Positions 22,080 to 24,436 of a stretch of DNA of 64,000 bases are shown piece after piece. The position numbers and the translations under genes are program-made. Numbering within the stretch: position 1 is the first letter of the stretch; the number at the start of each line of letters is the position of its first letter. Source of the DNA: Candidatus Poribacteria bacterium. Lineage in GTDB: Bacteria > Poribacteria > WGA-4E > UBA9662. Location of the stretch: NCBI GenBank assembly GCA_002709695.1, contig PAQF01000047.1, positions 1 to 64,000 of the forward strand. The letters run 5' to 3'. The notes beneath the pieces are model-generated. The model was not told where the DNA came from and did no database searches. It saw nothing but the letters and a program-made list of their open reading frames with translations.

Positions 22080-22643
22080 CTACACAGAAAGAAAATTACC
22101 AAGTAGTTTTTTTCCTTCTATGGTCAAGATTGACTCAGGATGAAACTGTACACCGTAAATTGACATCTCTTTATGTTGGATGCCCATGATTTCCTCTTCG
22201 TCTGTCCATGCTGTTAATTCTAAACAGTCCGGCAGACTGTCGTTTTGAATGATGAGGGAATGATAACGAGTGGCATCGAAAGGGGAAGGTAGTCCTTGAA
22301 AAATCTCTCGATTTTTGTGGTATATCGGCGACGTTTTTCCATGCATTAATCGGTTTGCCCGAACAATATTTCCACCGAATACTTGACCAATGCATTGATG
22401 CCCCAAACATACACCCAAAATCGGCACGCGGCCAGCATAATCTCTAATTAACTGACAAGAAATCCCCGCTTCGTTTGGCGTACAAGGCCCAGGTGAAATT
22501 ATAATCTTTTCTGGATCTAGCTTGTTAACTTGACTAATCGAAATTTTATCGTTTCGGTAGACGATTAGATCTGCGCCCAATTCCCCAAAATACTGAACCA
22601 AGTTATACGTGAAAGAGTCATAATTATCAATCATCAAGACCAT
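22080..22643 (-). CDS. trpG: Anthranilate synthase glutamine amidotransferase component
   Basis: A 187-aa class I glutamine amidotransferase. The nucleophile Cys79 lies in GVCLGHQ and the His-Glu pair in FHPESI near the C-terminus; [13 protein letters not shown] is the family start. It supplies ammonia to TrpE for anthranilate synthesis. The ATG is 8 bases after a GGAG located in the end of trpE, and the gap between the genes is 5 bases, so they are translationally linked. PabA of folate synthesis is nearly identical in motif, but the linkage to trpE and the upstream attenuator favour tryptophan. Confidence 0.93.
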
Positions 22644-22648
22644 TGCTC

Positions 22649-24133
22649 TTACTCCAGTCCTAATTCAGCTAATTCAATAGCGCGGATAACAGTACGTGCT
22701 TTATTGACGGTTTCTTGAAATTCTGTTTCGTTGACAGAATCCGTAACAATTCCACCACCAGCCTGTACATAGGCTATTCCGTCTTTAACAATAATTGTTC
22801 GAATTGTAATTGCGGTATCAGAATTACCATCGAAACTAAAATATCCGACTGCTCCACCGTAACAACCGCGACGAGTCAGTTCCAATTCGTCAATGATTTC
22901 CATCGCACGTATCTTTGGTGCCCCTGACAAGGTTCCTGCAGGAAAACAAGCTCGAATTACATCAAAAGCGCTCATTCCTTGCCGTAATTTCCCTTCTACT
23001 TGAGAAACAATGTGCATGACATGTGAGTAACGTTCAATAGCCATCATTTTGCTCACATGCACTGTGTCGTACTCACACACTCGCCCCAAATCGTTACGCC
23101 CTAAGTCAACCAACATTACGTGCTCAGCTATCTCTTTAGGATCCTCAATTAGCTCTCTGGCTAAGGCTTCATCTTCTTTCGGCGTTTGGCCTCTGGGTTT
23201 AGTCCCCGCAATAGGGCAAGTTTCCACGATACCGTCTTCAACTCGCACCATCATCTCGGGAGATGCTCCAGCGATTTTCAGATTATCTCCCAATTTCAAA
23301 TAATACATATATGGAGATGGGTTAATCATTCGTAGTGCACGATACACATCAAAGACTTCGACAGAAATTGGCGTACTAAAACGTTGTGAAGGAACAACTT
23401 GTATGATATCACCTGCACCAATATATTCTTTGGCCAAATCGATAATCTTTTCGTAATCAGCTTTAATAAAGTTAGATTTAACTTCTGCTGGCTGCTGATT
23501 TCGATCTGCAACTTTCGGTTCCAAATTTAAAGGGTGTTTAAGCTTAGCAATTAGCTCATCGATTTGTGACGTGGCGATTTCATAGGCCACATCAACATCA
23601 TCTTCCACATGAGCATTGGCGACCACTTTAATTTGGTGGCTGACATGGTCGAATACTAAGATAGTATCTGTAAGCATGAAGCAACTATCAGGTAAATCCA
23701 GGTCATCTTCGGTTGAGTCGGGCAACTTCTCAAAAAAACGTACCATATCATAGCCTAGATATCCAACGACTCCTCCATGGAAACGTGGGAGCCCTTCCAC
23801 CTCAACTGGTTGGTACACTTTAATTAAGTTCTCTAATTCGAGGAACGGGTCTTCGCATTCTCGCTCAATTATTTGTCCTGTTTTAGTAACTTGGATTTTT
23901 ACCCGGTTTCCTTTGCTTTGAAAAATGAGAGATGGTTGATTGCCGAGGAAGGAATATCGTGCGGCTTTTTCTCCACCTTCCACGCTCTCCAAAAGAAACG
24001 CATAGTCACTTTTTCCTATTTTATAGAATGCAGATACAGGAGTTTCTAAATCAGCAAGAATTGGTTTGTAAACAGGAATCAAGTTGCCTTGTTTTGCTTT
24101 CTTTCGAAACTCATCCAAATCCGGGAAATACAT
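22649..24133 (-). CDS. trpE: Anthranilate synthase component I
   Basis: A 494-aa chorismate-using enzyme that makes anthranilate with the TrpG amidotransferase, the first step of tryptophan synthesis. The N-terminal region has LLES (residues 47-50), the feedback-inhibition motif of TrpE. The catalytic C-terminal half shows [28 protein letters not shown] and AGGGIVTDS. The ATG follows GGAG at 9 bases. Upstream lies a leader with a Trp-containing peptide frame and mutually exclusive hairpins, so expression is probably attenuated by charged tRNA-Trp. The later trp genes are not in this window. Confidence 0.95.
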
Positions 24134-24191
24134 TAATAAGTCTCCACACCTTTGTTCCTTAGGGAACTCTTCTATTAACTAAATAAAAAAA

Positions 24192-24225
24192 AGTCGCAGA
24201 CATCACGTTTAGTATGCCTACGACT
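24192..24225 (-). terminator. Attenuator terminator in the trpE leader
   Basis: In minus-strand RNA, AGUCGUAGGCAU (24225-24214) pairs over 12 bp, two of them G-U, with AUGUCUGCGACU (24203-24192). The loop is 10 bases, and UUUUUUUAUUU follows (24191-24181). In plus-strand RNA the two G-U pairs become mismatches, so the structure is built for the trpE strand. It ends about 58 bases before the trpE start. GUAGGCAUAC (24221-24212) can instead pair over 10 bp with GUGUGCCUGU (24265-24256), which would destroy the terminator. Confidence 0.8.
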
Positions 24226-24251
24226 CATTTTCTTTGTGAGGATCTTGATTT

Positions 24252-24350
24252 TTATACAGGCACACTCCCGCTCCGATCAATGTGCCGCCAACGACTAACA
24301 CATACAATCACTTCAGTTCTTGATTGCCAAATACCCACCCTGAAAACCAT
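24252..24350 (-). CDS. trpL: Candidate trp leader peptide
   Basis: A 32-codon frame from ATG at 24350 to TAA at 24252, with Trp codons at positions 8 and 21. The second TGG (24290-24288) directly precedes GGCACAU (24286-24280), which can pair with GUGUGCC in segment 2. The stop codon lies right after segment 2. A ribosome stalled at Trp21 would cover segment 1 and let 2 pair with 3; one reaching the stop would cover 2 and let the terminator form. The ATG lacks a spaced ribosome binding site. A GTG at codon 5, about 11 bases after AAGGA, may be the true start. Confidence 0.55.
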   Translation of the reverse strand: MVFRVGIWQSRTEVIVCVSRWRHIDRSGSVPV

Positions 24351-24436
24351 CCTTGTAAAGATCGAATAAGAATAGCATAACCTGTAGTAATGAGTCAAGA
24401 CAGATCTAACCCAAGAATTATTATAATCTGCGAAAC

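Follow-up and report, generated by a model that had tools for sequence, protein, structure and literature searches.

The trp operon leader of Escherichia coli (trpL) is built from a short open reading frame with Trp codons just before RNA segment 1, a stop codon near segment 2, the segments 1 to 4 and a terminator that precedes trpE. In the hisL leader of E. coli and Salmonella the His codons of the leader peptide are found before a histidine biosynthesis gene. Other leaders respond to several amino acids, as is the case of thrL (Thr and Ile) and of the ilvGMEDA leader (Ile, Val and Leu). A 2010 survey listed leader-peptide attenuators as shown only in Proteobacteria and Actinobacteria, to which a Firmicutes case was added (PMC2965389).

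The window studied here, a stretch of 64,000 nucleotides of a Candidatus Poribacteria genome (G000), shares all these features of trpL in the minus-strand leader of its trpE-trpG operon (Table 1). The leader ORF has Trp codons and is predicted to be translated, a terminator precedes trpE, and a covarying antiterminator shares the 5' arm of the terminator. Judged from its conserved anatomy, the element would be a ribosome-mediated transcription attenuator that ancestrally sensed His and Trp and was reduced to Trp sensing in the window, a reading to which we give a probability of about 0.9.

The leader ATG at 24350 is directly preceded by AAGG, while a GTG at 24338-24336, roughly aligned with the ATG of the congeneric genome G001, is a possible alternative start. 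A TTGACA-type promoter is recognized by eye at the corresponding place in other families. Trp codon 1 sits 36 nt ahead of Trp codon 2. A small inverted repeat (GTTCCTTAGGGAAC, 24154-24167) lies between the attenuator and trpE; its G001 counterpart (TTTACTAAGGAAC) is not intact.

Table 1. Features of the trpE leader and operon in the window.
Feature	Position	Strand	Remarks
Sigma-70-type promoter, TTGACT-18-TATTCT, TG before the -10 hexamer	24369..24398	minus	Same hexamers in G001
Leader ORF, 32 codons, MVFRVGIWQSRTEVIVCVSRWRHIDRSGSVPV then stop	24252..24350	minus	Homologous to MQTRWPRSKVISCVKRWWYTSWGRSVPV then stop in G001
Trp codon 1	24327..24329	minus	Upstream Trp in G001 too; absent from the preliminary description
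Trp codon 2, control codon immediately 5' of segment 1	24288..24290	minus	Nearly all relatives have it in their core
Core CGT-TGG-CGG-CAC	24282..24293	minus	Aligned by eye with CAT-TGG-TGG-CAT, anchored on the conserved SVP codons
Segment 1, GGCACAU	24286-24280	minus	Forms 7 bp, one of them G-U, with GUGUGCC 24265-24259
Segment 2, GUGUGCCUGU	24265-24256	minus	Partner is segment 1 or segment 3
Segment 3, GUAGGCAUAC	24221-24212	minus	Pairs with segment 2 in the antiterminator; also belongs to the 5' arm of the terminator
Intrinsic terminator (3:4)	24185..24225	minus	12-bp stem, arms 24225-24214 / 24203-24192, two G-U
trpE, anthranilate synthase component I	22649..24133	minus	Regulated gene
trpG, anthranilate synthase glutamine amidotransferase	22080..22643	minus	Second operon gene

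A preliminary description of this DNA, which proposed a complete trp attenuator, had placed the three alternative helices correctly: 1:2 and 3:4 have the lengths given in Table 1 and 2:3, read directly on the minus strand, has 10 bp with three G-U among them. The terminator stem runs into eight U (24192-24185), the first of them inside the stem. The Trp codon assigned to the position directly before segment 1 is there, in the frame that leads from the ATG to TAA 24254-24252, and this stop does follow immediately on segment 2. The attenuator is complete in the sense that all segments are present, but the leader is reduced when compared to relatives, with CGG (24287-24285) in place of the second TGG of a tandem and a weaker 2:3 helix. 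The competition between 2:3 and 3:4, which had been left to a folding calculation, comes out against 2:3 in thermodynamic terms. Region folds gave -12.2 kcal/mol for 1:2, -10.0 for 2:3 and -16.9 to -18.2 for 3:4, a deficit of 7-8 kcal/mol for 2:3. The action of 2:3 must therefore be kinetic, with the helix forming ahead of the synthesis of segment 4. The 2:3 helix reaches -14.0 kcal/mol in G001. Helix energies of E. coli trpL are of similar size in a like calculation (-16.9 for 1:2, -15.0 for 2:3 and -13.7 kcal/mol for 3:4).

In the proposed mechanism RNA polymerase would start near 24362, with a ribosome following on the leader ORF. If charged tRNA-Trp is ample, the ribosome would reach the stop codon and cover segment 2, so that 3:4 terminates transcription near 24185. 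If tRNA-Trp is uncharged, the ribosome would wait at TGG 24290 and cover segment 1, so that 2:3 forms, the terminator does not and trpE-trpG is transcribed. An RNA without ribosome would form 1:2 and thereby permit 3:4. A ribosome stalled at Trp codon 1 would leave segment 1 free, favouring termination. The response in the window may be weakened due to the less stable 2:3 helix, the loss of one tandem Trp codon and the position of Trp codon 1 too far upstream.

As a single sequence, the whole window leader folds mildly better than its shuffles (z -1.7), and support beyond chance has thus to be comparative, coming from G001 and from about 75 Poribacteria genomes. G001 is the only congener of the window genome and its TrpE is 89% identical. 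Its leader keeps the frame, with four Trp codons including a WW tandem, and the promoter hexamers and every helix of the window are retained. None of the 20 positions of segments 2 and 3 differs, while segment 1 has three changes that all preserve pairing. In the terminator, both partners of one pair have changed (U-A to C-G), and in a second pair only one of them has (U-G to U-A). The covariation value between window and G001 is reached by 231 of 500 shuffles, as two sequences alone cannot prove covariation.

The region directly upstream of trpE had given the impression of a leader confined to one genus, which was wrong because relatives carry it upstream of hisI. When searched with a covariance model built from the window and G001 sequences, ten further genomes, from families f2 and f4, had matches ahead of hisI-trpE (E 3e-11 to 2e-5). 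Inspection of the sequence 5' of hisI in every available genome gave 70 tabulated leaders, and five more were found through the HWHWW pattern where contigs are split or mixed. The element is present in about 75 of the 79 genomes with usable upstream sequence, weakly in G067, and trpG follows trpE in all relatives examined. No leader was detectable in four genomes that keep hisI-trpE (G002, G046, G071 and G062). Between hisI and trpE of G002 (L007) there is a 12-nt match to segment 2 of the window (AGTGTGCCTGTA), a similarity attained by 5-11 of 1000 shuffles; it is a possible, weakly indicated, relic of a leader at that place.

Typical leader peptides are MQTLNRQPQFQIASHHWHWWHRVEGSSVPLLR in family f4 and MKYIRSHSSLHSISNHWHWWRSDSIKEGCAR in family f3. 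The HWHWW core is constant, as is the GTGTGC segment, but the N-terminal halves vary. In 85 genomes 51 of the 56 matches to the HWHWW DNA pattern fall in the hisI-trpE leader; the other five lie away from hisI and trpE and look like chance. Most tabulated leaders have a stem and U-run terminator 22-75 nt after the leader stop. The 1:2 helix, of 7 bp in the window as well as in G001, is about 5 bp long or of a different form in several relatives.

Some leaders depart from this organization or have an unusual context. Two hisI leaders are found in the G037 assembly, its own of f3 type (L243, C3) and one of f4 type (L167) on contig C149, which looks like contamination of that assembly. An insertion in the leader ORF of G082 and G084 (L210, L212) splits the HW core (EHWQCEAKTNS...GRIWWHS) and the frame stays open. 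Upstream of the hisI-trpE leader in G036 there is a cobalamin riboswitch, encoded on the other strand (L175:1091-1279).

The amino acid content of the leader peptide varies with the gene that follows. In the 66 leaders followed by hisI, His codons number 1-6 (mean 4.06) and Trp codons 2-4 (mean 3.14); the means of the four followed directly by trpE are 0.25 and 3.5, respectively. These four are from G000, G001, G059 and G060, with 1, 0, 0 and 0 His codons and 2, 4, 4 and 4 Trp codons; they stand for the window genus and two deep lineages and represent about two evolutionary contrasts rather than four independent ones. The His codons alternate between CAT and CAC yet stay His. By alignment, the core CAT-TGG-TGG-CAT of relatives corresponds to CGT-TGG-TGG-TAT in G001, and the core of the window has lost a His codon, kept one Trp codon, lost the other and retains one His codon.

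It is likely that the interleaved His and Trp codons read the charging of two tRNAs and exert OR control over hisI-trpE-trpG throughout the phylum, the His input being absent where hisI is absent. In most other Poribacteria a shortage of either His or Trp should then release the hisI-trpE leader. The strongest competing view, although clearly the less probable one, is that Trp alone is sensed throughout the phylum and that the His codons are incidental, TGG-CAY for instance supplying the GGCAY of segment 1. This GGCAY does pair with the end of segment 2, which could by itself favour one CAY codon, but several His codons are located outside segment 1, as in SHSSLHS of family f3. Leaders not linked to hisI (G001, G059 and G060) also keep the attenuator without His codons, and the first gene of the regulated operon is a His gene, both arguing for a sensing role of His in the two-input leaders.

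The window leader, with two Trp codons that are not in tandem and one His codon, followed by trpE and not hisI, is not of this dual type; by sequence comparison it appears to be homologous to the dual leaders and derived from them. In the window genus hisI is found on another contig (L153 in G000:C78, L154 in G001:C140), with no His/Trp leader seen upstream. Its product is 45% identical to operon HisI, the operon copies compared being 63-88% identical among themselves, and it is probably a xenologous replacement by a foreign copy. The loss of hisI and His codons in the window genus looks derived because G002, which belongs to the family of the window, has retained hisI-trpE. In this course of events hisI would have moved out of the operon and most of the His codons would have decayed, leaving Trp sensing in place. 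From anatomy, conservation, covariation, codon content and gene order we infer this evolutionary order as well as ribosome stalling, termination and the response to each amino acid.

Covariation was assessed in the antiterminator, whose segments were placed by motif in 71 rows. Each of the seven core pairs is intact in 69-71 of the 71 rows and double changes are found in G061 (UA to CG), in G059 and G060 (CG to UA) and in family f3 (CG to GU). When segment 3 was reshuffled among the 23 distinct combinations, none of 2000 reshufflings paired as well as observed, relatedness being retained in that shuffle. The two signs that the preliminary description had asked relatives for are both found: compensatory changes, in the terminator of G001 and in the antiterminator across the phylum, and conserved Trp codons in G001 and in the hisI-linked leaders. 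Genome by genome, antiterminator strength is clearly above shuffles in just 7 of 64 cases because the region is G-rich, and conservation is therefore used as support. These modest single-sequence statistics, together with the z value of the window leader, speak for a plain terminator or 5' UTR hairpin next to a chance ORF, with accidental alternative pairing. Such an origin is nevertheless very improbable because the leader frame, Trp codons, 2:3 pairing and terminator are conserved jointly across the order and its families and remain recognizable in the deep lineages G059 and G060.

It is similarly improbable that the relevant product comes from another frame (24307/24301 to 24218, MLVVGGTLIGAGVCLYKNQDPHKENES), either as a small hydrophobic protein or as a different type of uORF control. 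In the stretch shared by window and G001, synonymous changes are, by eye, more numerous in this frame than in the Trp frame, a bias explained by the paired segments 1 and 2 that this stretch covers. The frame is much shorter in G001. The Trp/His frame is met with in relatives throughout, its start, W/H core and stop included.

The least probable reading is attenuation by a Trp-binding protein of TRAP type, by a Trp T-box or by a small-molecule riboswitch. These share the terminator/antiterminator layout, but the leader has conserved codons instead of a conserved aptamer sequence, neither a T-box nor any other Rfam family was found in it, and PF02081 was not found in the 8 genomes searched. The Rfam scans (gathering score; E<=10) gave nothing above chance-level matches for the window leader and no match for eight relative loci. 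TrpR was not found either in those 8 genomes; the search for TRAP did detect its positive control, B. subtilis. As neither regulator was found in these genomes, attenuation may be among the principal controls of trpE.

A leader of this kind does not accompany trpE as a rule, as indicated by a control of other phyla with 79 trpE loci taken from public genome records. A convincing W-rich leader was seen only in Poribacteria, with a U-run in L031, L032 and L033 and an interrupted one in L035. Three further loci that passed a loose WW filter do not look like attenuators. Neighbouring hisI-trpE genes of Omnitrophota and Actinomycetota had no convincing leader of this kind, and no precedent of a His/Trp leader for hisI-trpE was found in the literature searched (open-licence papers). 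The window adds to the known systems a deep, uncultured and little-studied phylum with a conserved, probable leader-peptide attenuator and with no TrpR or TRAP found in the genomes searched.

The suggestion that the logic of the enterobacterial trp leader operates in an unrelated lineage is supported, the genome being that of a Poribacteria bacterium and the anatomy that of trpL. The window leader differs from trpL in having separated Trp codons instead of a tandem and in matching no Rfam family, and no TrpR was found in the 8 genomes. Its relatives differ further by an operon with hisI as first gene and a peptide with His and Trp. These relatives are like hisL in having His codons ahead of a histidine biosynthesis gene, but they mix in Trp codons and the operon is hisI-trpE-trpG, not a full his operon. 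The presence of a gene in the operon tracks the presence of its control codons, which offers a natural way to test how the specificity of attenuators arises. The HWHWW leaders would resemble thrL and ilvGMEDA in the sensing of more than one amino acid by one leader. The amino acids of thrL and ilvGMEDA belong to one connected pathway, whereas His and Trp come from different pathways that share PRPP, and the mixed leader of hisI-trpE, if true, would be a cross-pathway sensor.
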